Positions 25,423-33,574 of a stretch of 64,000 nt of DNA are shown here, piece by piece. Position 1 is the stretch's first letter. The number at the start of each line of letters is the position of its first letter. The translations under genes and the position numbers were made by a program. Source of the DNA: Chloroflexota bacterium (lineage in GTDB: Bacteria; Chloroflexota; UBA11872). The stretch is from contig JAPOYR010000002.1 of NCBI GenBank assembly GCA_026706485.1, positions 248,001 to 312,000 of the forward strand, read 5' to 3'. The notes beneath the pieces are model-generated. The model saw only the letters and a list, made by a program, of their open reading frames with translations, did no database searches and had not been told where the DNA came from.

Positions 25423-28400
25423 CTAAGGAAAAGGCAGCCCCACCTCATCGATCGCCACCATCAGGCGGATGGTCTCGCGCAGCGCGGCGGCGATGCGGAT
25501 GTAGTGAAACTGGTCGTCGATGGTTAACTTGCGGCCCTTGCGGTCCTTGAGCCACTTGTCTAGTGGCTGGTAGCCGCCGATGCGGAACTCCCAAACCTCG
25601 GGGGCAATGCCCTCGAAATACTGAGCACGCGCCCCGCCGTTGATGTAAACGCGCCCGCGCTCGAACGGCGTGGTCTCGGGCCAGCGGGTCTCACCCGGCG
25701 CGAAGTACTTGGGATGCTGCGGCTCGACGATGTCGTCGCCGGGAATTGGGAATCTAATGTCCGAAGCGTCGAGCGTCGGTGACTCCAGGAGGTGAACGGC
25801 CGTGATCTCTCGCCCCAGGACAGCCAGGCCATGAAACTGCTCCAAGCCATTCGGCAAGGGGATGCGCGGAAAGTCGGCACGCAGAAATTGAGCGTAGCGC
25901 TCGCGGTAGCTGGGGGAATGCAATACCGCGTAGATGTAATGCAATACGTCCTCTGGTCCGAAGGTGGATTCTAGGTCGCCGCGACCGCCGTGCACGAACT
26001 CCAGATCAAGCCGCCGTTCCAGATCCGCAGTGAATGCCGGATCAAGATTGGGACGACGTTCGCTACGCTGATAAAGGCCTTGCTTAATCTCTCGATCTGA
26101 CGGACGAATGTAGAGCGGGAACAGGCAGTTTCCACCTCTGCGGAATAGGTTAAACTCGGAGATGCTTCTCGAGATGAAGGCAATGTCCCACATATCTGAG
26201 CCAATGACTTGTCCGGCCCTACCTATACATAGCCCGACATTTCGTCCATCCAGCATATGCCGCATGACCCTTCGAGCCGTGCGCCAAACAAGCTTGTCCT
26301 CGTAGAATACGAACTTTCGGTCAAACGGTCGGTAGATAATTGGTTCGACGAAGCCATCCAAATCATCTCGGCCCTGTAGATTGTCCCAGCCATCGAGAAT
26401 ATTCCATCCCTTCTTTCTTTCCACATGAAACGAATCATGCAGGATCTCCGCGCTGCGTTCAGTATGCTTGAAGTCGTCGAACCGGCTAACAAGTACAGAC
26501 TTATCGATATCTATAACAAAATCGTCATGCGCGGTCGTTATTCCGACACCATTGATTGGAAAAATCTCTTTGACTCCCCATCCTGAGAGATAGTCCTCAA
26601 TGTTCTCCTCATCTCTCGGAACAAAAAGATATTGTGGTGTAGTCGGACTCAGAACCGACCACTCGATAGTCGATACGTCCTCCATCGCAAGGGTTTCGTA
26701 TTTTGATTCTCTGTCGCCCCAGATGTCCTGGTGGTGGATGCGGGCCGGAGTGGTCCTGCCAGCCTCCTTGATGAGAATTGCGATGGCAACGCCCTGCTGG
26801 ATATCGAAGACGTTCTGGTCGACCCCACCATCGGGCGCGCGCTCCCGGAGCTTTGCGTTGCCGTGGAGGTCGAGCAAATAGATGTCTGTAAAGGCGTGCA
26901 TCAATTGCTGGCGCATGCCGCGAAAAGTCGGGTTGTTAAGGTAGGCGTGGTTGGTTATGAAGGCGAGAATGCCTGCGCCCGACTGCTCGATGCGCCATTG
27001 GCCGAAGCGGATGAATTTGACGTAATCGTCTTGTAGCCATTTGGAGGTCCTCTCGCCCAAGGGTTTCCCGTCCACCTGCCGGTAATCCTCGATAAGGTTG
27101 CCGATCCAGGTCAGCTTGCCGTCCCTGCGGCTGGCGTTGGCCGAGTGCCCCGAGTACGGCGGATTGCCCAGCACCACCATGATCGGCAGGTCGCGCTTGA
27201 CGCCGATCGCCGCATTGGCCTCCTGGGTGAGAGTGCGCAGCGGACCGAACATGCTGGCGGTTTGGCTCTCGCCGGGGTCTAACGTATTGGTGAGATAGAC
27301 TCCCAGCCGCTCGCCGGCGTCGAAGGGATAGGCCCAGTCCTCCCGCGCGGTCTCGGGCAGGTCGAGGGCCGCCAGCTGCATGCCCAGCTTGAGGTGCGCC
27401 ATGGCGTAGGCCGCCATCAGTAGCTCGAAGCCGAACAGCCGCGGCAGAAGGTGGTCTTTGACGTAGCCGCGCCACATGCCCGCCCGTCCGCTGGTCTGAT
27501 GGTGCTCGCGCACGTGGTCGATCACGGCGTAGAGAAACGAGCCGGTGCCGCAGGCGGGGTCCAGCACCAATACGCGGTGCGCCTCGCGCTCCGCGCCGCC
27601 GTCGTCGCGGTAGCGCGCCTTCCCGTGGTCCGCGAGGCCCTCGGGGCAGCCGAACCGCTCCCGCAATAGGTGGTCCACCGAGCGCACGATGTAAGAGATG
27701 ACGGGCTCGGGCGTGTAATACACGCCGCGCCGCTCCCGCAGTTCCGGGTCGTAGGCGGCCAGGAAGGTTTCGTAGAAGTGCATGATCGGATCCTGGCGCG
27801 CCTCGCGCCGGCCAAAGTGCGCCAGCACCAGGTCCATCTGAGCAGCGTCGAGCAACTGCGCCAGGTCATCCACGAAGCTGGCAAAGGGTTCGCTGCTCAG
27901 GCCAGGGCCGGCCACCATGGCAAAGACCTGCTGCATGAATGGATTGGCGGCGGGAATGTGGTGAGCAGCGTTCTGCCAGTGGAAGGGACCGGACTCGTGA
28001 TTCACGCGCGCGGCGAAGAGGCCGTAGGCCAGGGTCTGCGCGAACATGTCGGCGAAGTCGTCCGGGTCCAGATCAGGAACCAGGACATCTTTTGACGCCG
28101 CGTACAAGTCTTGCAGATCCTGGGAAACCTGCTCTTGCTCGAATCCCCTTCCCACGATGTCGCGGATCATGTGGGCGATGCGCGCCATGCGCCGCGCTAG
28201 ATCTTCGGCAGTGGAAAGCTCTACCGGGCCCTGGATGAGGAAGTACTGGAGCAGTCCACGCAGGGCCTCAATCCCGCCTCGATCCACTGCCAAGCCACTG
28301 CGGTCGTCCAGGTCCGCCAGCGTGGCGACCTGGCGCGGCTTCCCATCCAGGTACCACCGGAATTCGAGGTAGTTGGTCAGCAGCAGGTTTGGTAGCGCCG

Positions 28401-28695
28401 CACGGTAGCGCTTGAGCTGCTTGCCGTTATCGGTACGCGGGCTGCGCCGGTCGCTGTCCCGCTCGATCACGCTCAAGTCGACGTCGCAGTCCTTGGCTTC
28501 CACGTAGCCGACCGGCTGCGGCATACCGGCGCTCTCGCGGGCTGTCCGCGAAACCACGAAATCCGGCGCGCCGCACTCAATGCGCCGTGGCTCGTTTGTC
28601 GCCGTCACCCCCACGGCGGCGCCTTCCAGCAACGCCTTCAGCGCCGGCCGGTGCGTGTGCTCCGTCGCGTTGCCGGCGGCCAGGTTGGCGCGCAA
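25423..28695 (-). CDS. Type ISP (single-polypeptide) restriction-modification enzyme
   Basis: A protein of about 1,090 residues. The N-terminal part carries a probable nuclease core (APDFVVSR ... GYVEAKDCD, a PD-(D/E)xK-like pattern). The middle is an N6-adenine methyltransferase, with YYTPEPVISYIV, motif I DPACGTGSFL (about residue 380) and motif IV NPPY (about 509). The C-terminal third, FDRKFVFY onward, is the DNA-recognition region. The order nuclease, methylase, specificity matches type ISP/LlaGI-like enzymes; whether a helicase-translocase segment is present between them was not resolved. The start is doubtful: the first usable codon is TTG 28695, but conserved sequence (AFRTYLREL) begins before it. 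It sits directly after an FRG-domain gene in the same frame and is flanked by repeats. Confidence 0.88.
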   Translation of the reverse strand: MRANLAAGNATEHTHRPALKALLEGAAVGVTATNEPRRIECGAPDFVVSRTARESAGMPQPVGYVEAKDCDVDLSVIERDSDRRSPRTDNGKQLKRYRAALPNLLLTNYLEFRWYLDGKPRQVATLADLDDRSGLAVDRGGIEALRGLLQYFLIQGPVELSTAEDLARRMARIAHMIRDIVGRGFEQEQVSQDLQDLYAASKDVLVPDLDPDDFADMFAQTLAYGLFAARVNHESGPFHWQNAAHHIPAANPFMQQVFAMVAGPGLSSEPFASFVDDLAQLLDAAQMDLVLAHFGRREARQDPIMHFYETFLAAYDPELRERRGVYYTPEPVISYIVRSVDHLLRERFGCPEGLADHGKARYRDDGGAEREAHRVLVLDPACGTGSFLYAVIDHVREHHQTSGRAGMWRGYVKDHLLPRLFGFELLMAAYAMAHLKLGMQLAALDLPETAREDWAYPFDAGERLGVYLTNTLDPGESQTASMFGPLRTLTQEANAAIGVKRDLPIMVVLGNPPYSGHSANASRRDGKLTWIGNLIEDYRQVDGKPLGERTSKWLQDDYVKFIRFGQWRIEQSGAGILAFITNHAYLNNPTFRGMRQQLMHAFTDIYLLDLHGNAKLRERAPDGGVDQNVFDIQQGVAIAILIKEAGRTTPARIHHQDIWGDRESKYETLAMEDVSTIEWSVLSPTTPQYLFVPRDEENIEDYLSGWGVKEIFPINGVGITTAHDDFVIDIDKSVLVSRFDDFKHTERSAEILHDSFHVERKKGWNILDGWDNLQGRDDLDGFVEPIIYRPFDRKFVFYEDKLVWRTARRVMRHMLDGRNVGLCIGRAGQVIGSDMWDIAFISRSISEFNLFRRGGNCLFPLYIRPSDREIKQGLYQRSERRPNLDPAFTADLERRLDLEFVHGGRGDLESTFGPEDVLHYIYAVLHSPSYRERYAQFLRADFPRIPLPNGLEQFHGLAVLGREITAVHLLESPTLDASDIRFPIPGDDIVEPQHPKYFAPGETRWPETTPFERGRVYINGGARAQYFEGIAPEVWEFRIGGYQPLDKWLKDRKGRKLTIDDQFHYIRIAAALRETIRLMVAIDEVGLPFP

Positions 28696-28740
28696 CTCTC
28701 GCAGGTAGGTGCGGAAAGCGCTCTCAGCGGCTATTTCGGA

Positions 28741-29730
28741 CTACCCATCTTCTGGTGTGTTGGGACTGCCGGCGATGAAGCTCTCTGGCCGAAGGCTTAC
28801 GGTGAACGGCTGCGCTTCTTGCTGAACCGGTCTGCCATCCCAGGATGGCATTTCATTGCTTGCCCCTAGACTGAATCCGTGCCAACTAGAGGCCAGATTA
28901 GCCTGCCTTGCAGCGCCACCCGGGTCGGGATAAACCGTGCCGAAATGAATGTTCATACGATCAAGATCGGAGATTGCAGCATTCACGCTACGAGCATATT
29001 GGATCTCGTAGCGTTCGAGAAGATGCCCGAGATCCCTCGATGCCAAATAGCTTTCAATCTCGATATAGGCGTCATGTTCAAGCCGCGTAAAAACGCCCTG
29101 CTGCGCACGTTGCCTGTGGAGCTCATATCTCACGTTATCGATGAAACTGAATTCTCCGTCGACAAAGACATCGCGTGTGCACGAAAGCTCCCAGACGACC
29201 ACAGGCGGCCCTGAACTCGTGATTGCCTCAGGATTGGGACTTCCCAGATGAGGATTCTCGGAAATAACCCGCTCCGAGAAAGCCCAGAAAGCGGCAACAA
29301 ATGGGCTCCGCGACCAATCGAGCAACGGCGTATTCAGTCCGTGGTGCCGTCCGAATGTCCACCAATCGTCATCGGTCTCAAGAGTTCGCTCTGGTAGCTC
29401 AGGCATTGTCCCGGCTAGCCACTTAAATGCTAGCAAGTTAGCGTCGCGCGCTTGTTCGTAGTTGCCGATGGAGCTATGCCGGCTGCTGAATCGTTCGAAT
29501 CCGTCATGGGGTCCGAAAAACTCCTCACGGGTGCGCGGCATCCCTCGACTCAGGTAGGCGATAAACCGCTCCCAGGTGGACGACAGCTTCCACTCAGGTT
29601 TGGCGTGTCCGCGATATATGCGGCCACCGATTTGCTTACCTCCTGTTACTCGAAGAGCCTGGATGAATGCGTCCCAGGACTCACACTGAGTGACCCTAAT
29701 CCCGGAGTCTTCGGTATAGCGGTTGGGCAA
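28741..29730 (-). CDS. FRG-domain protein, defence-module neighbour
   Basis: A 329-residue protein with an FRG domain, named for its Phe-Arg-Gly-type motif, here seen as GGRIYRGHAKPEWKL plus the FGRHHGLNTPLLDWSRSP block. FRG domains recur beside restriction-modification and abortive-infection systems, but their activity is not established. The only start is a TTG at 29730, and the conserved part begins near IRVTQCESWDAF. GC is about 50%, well below the surroundings. Its TAG stop at 28741-28743 is in frame with the R-M coding sequence 3' of it. Confidence 0.82.
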   Translation of the reverse strand: MPNRYTEDSGIRVTQCESWDAFIQALRVTGGKQIGGRIYRGHAKPEWKLSSTWERFIAYLSRGMPRTREEFFGPHDGFERFSSRHSSIGNYEQARDANLLAFKWLAGTMPELPERTLETDDDWWTFGRHHGLNTPLLDWSRSPFVAAFWAFSERVISENPHLGSPNPEAITSSGPPVVVWELSCTRDVFVDGEFSFIDNVRYELHRQRAQQGVFTRLEHDAYIEIESYLASRDLGHLLERYEIQYARSVNAAISDLDRMNIHFGTVYPDPGGAARQANLASSWHGFSLGASNEMPSWDGRPVQQEAQPFTVSLRPESFIAGSPNTPEDG

Positions 29731-30340: not shown

Positions 30341-31456
30341 ATGGTGACGCCGGGGCGCTCGACCGGACCGATGGTGGCGGACCTGACCGTGGGTCAGCCG
30401 GCGGTTGACGTGCTGCCGCTGGACGAGCTGGCGGAGGCGGCGCGGGCCGCGCTGCCCGGCAATCCCAAGGCCCTGCTGTATACGCACACCGAAGGCGCGG
30501 CGGAGCTGATCGACGTGGTGCGGGCCAAGCTGCGGCACTACGAAGGGCTGGACCTCGACCGCGACCAGATCGCCATCACCAGCGGCTCGAGCCAGGCGAT
30601 CGACCTGGTACTCCGGACGTTCACCGAACTGGATGGGCCGTTGGCCATGGATGAAGTGTCGTACGGCGCCATTCCGGCGCGCCGGCTGACCGGTCGCGTC
30701 GACCACATTCCGTTCGACGACGACGGACCGCAGCCGGAGGCCGTCGCCCGGCATGCGCGTGCGCTCGACCGGCCGTTCGTGTTCTACACCATGCCGACGT
30801 TTCAGAACCCGACGGGCCTGACCGTCGGCATGACCCGCCGCCGCGAACTGCTCGACGTCTGCCGCGCGGAAGGCGTGCCAATCCTCGAGGACGACGCCTA
30901 CTACGAGCTGCGCTATGAGGGCGAGCGCGTGCCGTCACTCTTGGAGCTGGACGGCGGCAGCGGGCTGGTGGTGCGCACCGGCACGTTCTCGAAGATCTTG
31001 GGGGCCGGCATTCGCCTGGGGTGGATGGCCAGCTCGGCGCCGCTGATCGACCGGGTGCTGCGGCTGAAGCCGGACAGCGGCACCAGCCCCTTCGCCTCGG
31101 CCATCGCGGCGCGGTTCATGCAGGACCACATGGAGTCGCAAATCGCGCGGGTGCGGGCCTTCTATCGCGACAAGCGCGACTTGATCATGGAGGCGCTCGA
31201 CCGGCATCTCGAGGATCGGGCGACGTGGCGGACTCCCGAGGGTGGCTTCTTCGTGTGGATCACGTTCGACCCGTCGCGCGACGTGGCGGCGATCGTGCAT
31301 GAATGCGCCTCGCGCGGCGTGCGAGTGCGCAGCGGCGCGGAGTTTCGAGTGGACGGAGACACGCGCCACGCCATTCGGCTGGCGTTCAGTCACACTGAGC
31401 CGCAGGCTATTGAGAGAGGCGTGAAGATCCTGGGCGAGGTGGTGGCGGAGCAGTGA
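30341..31456 (+). CDS. PLP-dependent class I/II aminotransferase (2-aminoadipate/MocR-core type)
   Basis: A 371-residue aminotransferase. Visible motifs are ITSGSSQAIDL, FYTMPTFQNPTGLT (the Asn and Pro contacting PLP), LEDDAYYEL (Asp binding the pyridine nitrogen) and TGTFSKILGAGIRLGWM with the Schiff-base Lys, plus a late Arg (HAIRLAFS) for the carboxylate. No GntR helix-turn-helix is attached. The ATG at 30341 is used; homologous sequence may start a few codons earlier (DFEPALS), without a standard start. Its stop overlaps the next Ldh2 gene by GTGA, so they form an operon. Confidence 0.9.
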   Translation: MVTPGRSTGPMVADLTVGQPAVDVLPLDELAEAARAALPGNPKALLYTHTEGAAELIDVVRAKLRHYEGLDLDRDQIAITSGSSQAIDLVLRTFTELDGPLAMDEVSYGAIPARRLTGRVDHIPFDDDGPQPEAVARHARALDRPFVFYTMPTFQNPTGLTVGMTRRRELLDVCRAEGVPILEDDAYYELRYEGERVPSLLELDGGSGLVVRTGTFSKILGAGIRLGWMASSAPLIDRVLRLKPDSGTSPFASAIAARFMQDHMESQIARVRAFYRDKRDLIMEALDRHLEDRATWRTPEGGFFVWITFDPSRDVAAIVHECASRGVRVRSGAEFRVDGDTRHAIRLAFSHTEPQAIERGVKILGEVVAEQ

Positions 31457-32493
31457 CCGATTCCCGGCGCATGGACCACCAAGCCATGCGGACGTTCGCC
31501 GCCGATGTGATGGCCGCCGCCGGATGCTCGGCCGACGAGGCGGAAAGCGTCGCCGACATGCTGGTGGAAGCCGACCTGCGCGGCTTGTTTTCCCACGGCG
31601 TGATGCGGCTGACGGTCTACACCGACTGGATTCGCGAAGGCCGGATGCGCCCCGGCGCCGAGATCCGGGAAGTCGTTTCGGGACCCGCGGTGGCCGTCCT
31701 GGACGCCGACGGGGCCCTCGGCCCGGTGTCCGCCGCCCGCGGCGTCGACCGCGCCGTCGAGCTTGCCCTCGCCGGCGCCGCGGCGTTCGTGTTCGTGAAG
31801 AACGGCACGCACTTCGGGCCGGCGGCGCACTGGGCGCTGCGAGCGGCCGAGCGCGACTGCATCGGGTTCTGCTCCAGCAACGGCGGCGGCGTGGCCGGCG
31901 TGCTGGCCTACGGCAGCCGCGAGGTGGCCCTGACCAACGGCCCCATCGCCTGGGCCCTGCCGACAGCCAGACACCCGGCACTGGTGGCGGACATGGCCGT
32001 GGGCGCGGCCGCGATGGGCAAAGTGCGGGTGGCGCGGGCGGCCGGTACGCCGATCCCGGACGACTGGGGCGTGGATGCCGACGGCAATCCGACCACCGAC
32101 CCGGCCGCGCTCGTCAACCTGATTCCGTTCGCGGGACCCAAGGGCTACGGAATGGGCATCGTGACCGAGACGCTGGCGGGAATCCTGGCGGGCGCGGTGG
32201 CCCGAGTGAACCGGAAGCCCGACGATCCGCAGCCGGTGGGGCAGGTGTTCGGCGCGATCAACATCGCCGCGTTTCGGCCCGTGGCGGAGTTCAAAGCCGA
32301 TGTCGACGATGCGATCGATCGGCTCCACGCCATCCCGCCAGCGGTGGGATCCGACGGAGTGATGGCTCCGGGCGAGCCCGAGTGGCGGAAGCGTAACCAG
32401 TCGCTGGCGGACGGCATCGAGTACCCCGACGGCCTGCTGGAAGACTTGGCCGTCACCGCACGAAGCCTGGGCGTCGCCCCGGCCTGGAGCTGA
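31453..32493 (+). CDS. Ldh2-family 2-hydroxyacid dehydrogenase (copy 2 of 4)
   Basis: A 346-residue Ldh2/ComC-type oxidoreductase with EADLRGLFSHGVMRLTVY (catalytic His), KNGTHFGPAAHWAL, NGPIAWALPTA and GPKGYGMGIVTETLAGIL. It starts at GTG 31453 overlapping the aminotransferase stop and is followed 4 bases later by another Ldh2 gene. The pairing with an aminotransferase suggests the 2-oxo acid made by transamination is reduced here, or the reverse; the substrate is unknown. Confidence 0.9.
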   Translation: MTDSRRMDHQAMRTFAADVMAAAGCSADEAESVADMLVEADLRGLFSHGVMRLTVYTDWIREGRMRPGAEIREVVSGPAVAVLDADGALGPVSAARGVDRAVELALAGAAAFVFVKNGTHFGPAAHWALRAAERDCIGFCSSNGGGVAGVLAYGSREVALTNGPIAWALPTARHPALVADMAVGAAAMGKVRVARAAGTPIPDDWGVDADGNPTTDPAALVNLIPFAGPKGYGMGIVTETLAGILAGAVARVNRKPDDPQPVGQVFGAINIAAFRPVAEFKADVDDAIDRLHAIPPAVGSDGVMAPGEPEWRKRNQSLADGIEYPDGLLEDLAVTARSLGVAPAWS

Positions 32494-32497
32494 TCCC

Positions 32498-33574
32498 ATG
32501 GGCGCCGCGACATACACCACCTACGACACCAGCGGCCCGCAGGTCGCGCGCCAGGAGCTCGAGACGTTCGGGGGCAAGCTGCTGGAATCCGTGGGGATGA
32601 ACGCAGCGGGCGCCGCCCTGACGGCCCGGACGCTGGTGCACGCGGACCTGCGCGGCGTGCATTCGCACGGCGTGCGGATGTTGCCGCTCTATCTGAAGAC
32701 GCTGGCCAACAAATCCTTGAATCCCAGGCCGACGGTGCGGGAAGTCAGCAGCGGCCCCGGCCACGCGACGTTCGACGGCGACAACGGGATGGGCCAAATT
32801 GCGTCCGAAGTCGCGATGGCGCGGGCGATCGAGTTGGCGCACGACTTCGGCGTGGGGATGACCGTCGTCGACAACACCGGCCACTTCGGCGCGGCCGGCT
32901 ATTGGGTCATCATGGCGGCGGAGGCGGGCTGCATGGGCTATTGCGCCAGCAACCTGCGCGGCCCTGTGCTCCTGGCGACCGGGGGCCGCGGCGGAGCCGC
33001 CGGCAACAATCCGCTGGCCTGGGCCTTCCCCGGCCGGCGCCACCGTCCCACGGTGCTGGATATGGCGACCGGGGCCGTGGCCCTGGGCAAGATCGCGGCG
33101 CTGGGGGAGGGCGGATTTCAAGCCCCGGAAGGCGTCGCGGCCGATGCCGAGGGCCGGCCGACCCGCGATCCGTCCAAGGTGGCCTTCGTGGCTCCGGCGG
33201 CGGGTCCCAAGGGATATGCATTGGCCGTGGTGCACGACGTGCTGGTGGGCGCCCTGACCGGCGGCGGATCGGCGCTGCAGAAGGAGCCGCTGGTGCTCGG
33301 CGGCCCGCTGGACGGCGGCCTGTTCTTCATGGCCATGGACATTTCGGCGGTCATGCCGCTGGCGGATTTCACCGTCGCCATGGACGCGCAGACCGACGCG
33401 GTGAACGGCCTCGAACCGGCGGCAGGCGTGGACCGGGTAAGCATGCCGGGCCAGATCGAGTGGGACCTCTACGACGAGCGCGTCGCGACGGGCATTCCAT
33501 TTCCCGCAGGCGTGCTCGATCCATTGGCCGAGGTCGCCAAACAGTATGGCGTGGCCCCGCCGTGGGTCGGCTAG
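32498..33574 (+). CDS. Ldh2-family 2-hydroxyacid dehydrogenase (copy 3 of 4)
   Basis: A 358-residue member of the same superfamily, with HADLRGVHSHGVRMLPLYL, VVDNTGHFGAAGYWV, GNNPLAWAFPG and GPKGYALAVVHDVLVGAL. It is only moderately similar to the neighbouring copy, so the two are old paralogs that probably differ in substrate or stereospecificity rather than a recent duplication. It lies 4 bases after copy 2 and 31 bases before the cysteine-synthase-like gene. Confidence 0.9.
   Translation: MGAATYTTYDTSGPQVARQELETFGGKLLESVGMNAAGAALTARTLVHADLRGVHSHGVRMLPLYLKTLANKSLNPRPTVREVSSGPGHATFDGDNGMGQIASEVAMARAIELAHDFGVGMTVVDNTGHFGAAGYWVIMAAEAGCMGYCASNLRGPVLLATGGRGGAAGNNPLAWAFPGRRHRPTVLDMATGAVALGKIAALGEGGFQAPEGVAADAEGRPTRDPSKVAFVAPAAGPKGYALAVVHDVLVGALTGGGSALQKEPLVLGGPLDGGLFFMAMDISAVMPLADFTVAMDAQTDAVNGLEPAAGVDRVSMPGQIEWDLYDERVATGIPFPAGVLDPLAEVAKQYGVAPPWVG

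Follow-up and report, generated by a model that had tools for sequence, protein, structure and literature searches.

Restriction-modification (R-M) enzymes of the Thermus family, such as TaqII, TaqIII and TspGWI, have a type IIC/IIL architecture (PMC5587805), in which a single chain of about 1,100 amino acids holds an N-terminal nuclease, an N6-adenine methyltransferase and a type ISP-like recognition domain. FRG domains have been proposed to be ADP-ribosyltransferase-like or NADase effectors of defence systems (PMC9503650). Translation can also begin outside the standard start codons. In S. aureus, infC, ccpN and citZ start at AUA, with an output for ccpN and citZ of about 10-30% of that from AUG, and the non-canonical starts of this species have extended Shine-Dalgarno sequences (PMC13009471); Streptomyces sigR starts at GTC (PMC5472188). 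Here, we describe a 64,000-nucleotide stretch of a Chloroflexota draft genome (the window), on whose minus strand a gene of the TaqII/TaqIII/TspGWI type, unlike its described counterparts, follows an FRG-domain gene and lacks a standard start codon. Like S. aureus infC, ccpN and citZ, Streptomyces sigR and E. coli infC, it shows a codon other than ATG, GTG or TTG at a conserved start position; those cases come with a strong or extended Shine-Dalgarno sequence or with experimental proof, whereas the ATA found here comes with a weak signal.

The R-M gene spans 25423..28734 on the minus strand (1,103 codons from the ATA), and its product matches Pfam Type_ISP_C (E 6.9e-73) and N6_Mtase (E 4.4e-9) as well as the PADLOC model REase_MTase_IIG (E 2.3e-259). 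It contains a PD-(D/E)xK nuclease, an N6-adenine methyltransferase and a type ISP-like target recognition domain, and the motifs GAPD...YVEAKD, DPACGTGSF and NPPY, the last two shared with TaqII, TaqIII and TspGWI, are present and aligned with those of relatives (alignment A1). By sequence profile, the nearest solved relatives are DrdV, LlaBIII and LlaGI. The type IIL enzyme DrdV (PDB 7lo5/7lvv) is the best of these (E 4.4e-56) and also the best N-terminal fold match (E 3.5e-5), an AlphaFold2 model of the N-terminal 200 residues (mean pLDDT 89.9) matching its nuclease end, although identity across the nuclease domain is only about 20%. The type ISP enzymes LlaGI and LlaBIII have the methyltransferase and the C-terminal recognition domain in common with the window protein, but they also carry a helicase-like ATPase, and their solved chains are 1,406-1,578 residues long. 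A domain search gave no SF2 helicase-like ATPase match between the nuclease and the methyltransferase of the window protein, and a type ISP identity was rejected on this ground and on that of a chain of only 1,103 residues. With its length of about 1,100 residues, its type ISP-like recognition domain and its lack of a helicase-like domain, the predicted enzyme is assigned to the Thermus family (TaqII/TaqIII) of type IIC/IIL R-M proteins. A locus from bacterium UASB270 (L102), an organism listed among the TaqIII relatives (PMC5587805), encodes a protein 43% identical to it.

The closest relatives come from Chloroflexota/Dehalococcoidia draft genomes; a search of genome contigs with the single window protein gave no match, and the relatives were retrieved with alignment A1. 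A plasmid search returned relatives below 60% identity only, and no exact match to a segment of the R-M gene was found in a scan of viral contigs. Other, distant R-M paralogues of this type, at least two of them, are also present in the same genome (G000:C2:187152-189239 and G000:C3:79902-82784, 34% and 32% identity). Within the window gene, GC at third codon positions is 0.47-0.54 at codons about 700-900, a stretch that includes the beginning of the recognition domain, whereas the rest of the gene has 0.69-0.91, and this fall suggests that the recognition domain may have been exchanged by recombination.

The FRG-domain gene lies at 28741..29730 on the minus strand and encodes 329 amino acids from a TTG start to a TAG stop. 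Its identity is indicated by Pfam FRG PF08867 (E 8.8e-15, 55.8 bits against a cut-off of 25), by PADLOC PDC-S15 (E 8.4e-45) and by its relatives, of which those in G011, G014 and G015 align from a TTG or ATG at the position of the window start. The TAG stop (28741..28743) is common to G003, G011, G014 and G015. FRG genes without this R-M gene beside them occur at G018:C28:432068-433047 (L037, L044), G015:C67 (L053) and G011:C50 (L055); the G018 copy is in two pieces, each with a stop, and appears broken.

Within a sample of 19 genomes of the family, five carry the R-M gene, and in four of these (the window, G003, G011 and G014) an FRG gene lies directly upstream. The distance from the FRG TAG to the R-M start is 6, 6, 5 and 4 nt in these four genomes, respectively, and the R-M frame is offset from that of FRG by 0, 0, 2 and 1. 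Across the family, the predicted genes are thus a conserved adjacent pair, while the frame that they share in the window, and its continuity across the stop, are not conserved. Outside the family, no fetched locus had an FRG gene adjoining this R-M gene, the sole FRG match in 80 genome contig loci being the G003 contig itself.

At the junction, the minus strand reads ...CCA GAA GAT GGG TAG TCC GAA ATA GCC GCT GAG AGC GCT TTC CGC ACC TAC CTG CGA GAG TTG..., in which the TAG is followed by a six-nucleotide spacer, TCCGAA (28735..28740), and by the ATA (28732..28734). The earlier note had described two genes in one frame parted by a single TAG at 28743-28741, with no standard start ahead of the conserved AFRTYLREL segment and a fusion of about 1,430 residues were the stop read through, and our analysis bears out this description. 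Downstream of the TAG, the frame runs on for 1,105 codons, as far as 25423, which would make a hypothetical fusion about 1,435 residues long. No ATG, GTG or TTG precedes AFRTYLREL in the R-M frame, and the first standard in-frame start codon is the TTG at 28693..28695. A shared frame alone is a 1-in-3 event and also recurs in G003, where the R-M gene has its own ATG downstream; what goes beyond chance at this junction is the missing standard start. In another frame, a five-codon ORF (ATG GGT AGT CCG AAA TAG, 28731..28748, minus strand) overlaps the FRG stop and is probably incidental; the G003 junction lacks an ATG at the corresponding place.

Relatives place the start of the R-M gene at the ATA. 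In the four closest orthologues, the column aligned with it holds ATG (L045, L046 and L048) or GTG (L047), exactly 20 codons before the motif GNATEHT, and L059 also has ATG there. The counterpart in G003, which belongs to the same genus, has an identical junction, with the same frame, TAG, two codons and then an ATG aligned with the window ATA at 28734-28732. Among the 53 relatives in which the GxATEHT (GNATEHT) motif was found automatically, to which the test was limited, all 53 have an ATG, GTG or TTG 15-36 codons ahead of it (15-27 codons in 50, 35-36 in three); the window is the sole exception, with only a TTG seven codons before GNATEHT. Chance is an unlikely reason for an ATA in exactly this column, since ATA makes up only 0.2% of codons (7 of 3,482 in eight window genes). 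The ATA is therefore very likely to occupy the true start site of the R-M gene, whether as a codon in use, as a lost start or as a sequencing error. It is an AUA at the start-codon position of the orthologues, and was seen in one genome only.

We favour, at a probability of roughly 57%, translation of the R-M protein from the ATA at 28734-28732, with FRG and R-M as separate genes in a single small defence operon. Ribosomes would terminate at the TAG and R-M translation would initiate six bases on, at the site where ATG or GTG serves as the start in relatives. Most likely, this start was ancestrally an ATG that mutated to ATA in the lineage of the window, and the protein would be made at a low level, aided by coupling to FRG termination; the shared frame would be a by-product of the six-base spacer. 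Predicted Shine-Dalgarno pairing at the ATA is -4.3 kcal/mol, against a median of -2.8 and a 5th percentile of -7.0 at random positions, and is near that of the FRG-carrying relatives (-4.8 to -6.0 kcal/mol). No strong Shine-Dalgarno sequence, a trait of the known cases though not strictly a defining one, was found at the ATA, and the weak pairing fits translation that may be coupled to the upstream FRG gene. Of the two alternatives in the earlier note, stop read-through or a noncanonical start, the second is the better one, and relatives place the start at this codon; the sequence by itself is compatible both with use of the ATA and with a start that was lost or mis-sequenced.

The latter is possible but clearly less probable, and holds either that the start was recently lost by an ATG to ATA change, with the R-M gene effectively off or turning into a pseudogene, or that the draft-genome consensus is in error and the start codon in the actual cell is a normal one. 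In favour of this reading, a standard start is present in every one of the 53 testable relatives, the change amounts to one transition, and the ribosome-binding signals are weak. The rest of the gene speaks on both sides: it has no internal stop across 1,103 codons and no other defect, which tells against loss but is also what a very recent event or an error would leave. Of 498 columns that do not vary among the other four orthologues, the window protein has a substitution in 41, within the range of the others (28-55), and pN/pS is 0.37-0.44 between the window and relatives and 0.34-0.42 among relatives. A long-dead pseudogene was rejected on this normal substitution pattern; the intact gene rules out old decay, and is compatible with very recent loss or assembly error. 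The measured output of AUA initiation elsewhere means that the change by itself need not have inactivated the gene. An unlikely reading keeps a standard codon and begins the protein at TTG 28695, the first in frame and the choice of an automatic gene finder, to give 1,090 residues without AFRTYLRE. Numbered from the ATA, the predicted first helix of the AlphaFold2 model covers residues 2-19, and a start at this TTG would remove 13 of the first 19 residues, including Tyr10, which is invariant in 34 sequences. Its pairing of -1.8 kcal/mol is the weakest among the candidates in the R-M frame, and none of the 53 relatives relies on such an internal start.

Fusion of the two proteins by read-through of the TAG, which the earlier note had raised, is very improbable. 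In the window, as in G003, the frame continues beyond the TAG, but in G011 and G014 the frames differ, and read-through would meet a stop or the wrong frame. An ATG precedes AFRTYL in G003, G006 and G014, an observation that the earlier note had named as one that would refute its reading, and a GTG in G011, so the R-M gene has its own start in these relatives as in all 53 testable ones. Neither the 80 genome loci nor the other relatives' loci fetched contain a fused ORF, and most relatives carry the R-M gene without FRG. None of the 48 tRNAs recognised by ARAGORN, out of 49 Rfam tRNA hits (one weak hit went unrecognised), has a CTA anticodon, and the PylS model gave a below-cut-off match only, like those in control genomes. 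The tRNA survey also showed an unusual, low-scoring tRNA-Phe with an AAA anticodon (G000:C11:401367-401439, L185), 1.4 kb upstream of a normal tRNA-Phe(GAA) and possibly a decayed copy. Least probable of all is a start at ATG 28748-28746 in the other frame, reaching the R-M frame by slippage or through an indel error in the AAA run. An ATG does exist at that place, and the two frames come together in no more than five codons; the sequence has no classic slippery heptamer. In G003, the spacer is equally long and the ATA column holds an ATG, so that one substitution explains the difference between the two genomes and no indel is needed.

If the ATA is used, standard gene finders would wrongly begin the R-M protein at TTG 28695, a truncation that leaves out the first helix of the nuclease domain. 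Its use would also be a further example of non-canonical initiation, from a bacterial phylum for which, to our knowledge, almost no such data exist, and from a defence operon, in which the level of expression is important. Non-canonical starts are already known, and the finding is a modest one. The locus further illustrates that a same-frame stop between neighbours can pass for a fusion, and that a few relatives suffice to settle the matter. A more speculative extension, which we regard as doubtful, is that the ATA acts as a throttle, the ATG having been replaced so that a self-endangering R-M enzyme would be made at a low level, under IF3 control and only while FRG is translated; this idea is modelled on the GTC start of sigR in Streptomyces.

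In this genome and its genus, the gene for IF3 itself, infC, has its likely start at a conserved CTG, within the sequence AAG GAG NNN TCT CTG CGA GCC (TTT for TCT in L190). The CTG lies just downstream of AAGGAG, with a spacing of three to six bases by codon, at the infC loci L168 (G000:C10 around 176,200-176,750, minus strand), L190 and L192-L195. In G003 (L192), the stretch that leads from the upstream stop to the conserved IF3 sequence holds no in-frame ATG, GTG or TTG. IF3 thus probably starts at CTG in this clade, where at least one non-canonical start therefore appears to be in use. Elsewhere in the window, two adjacent plus-strand ORFs (31453-32493 and 32498-33574) have products that resemble tandem paralogues, which, judged by eye, we take to be putative Ldh2-like dehydrogenases.
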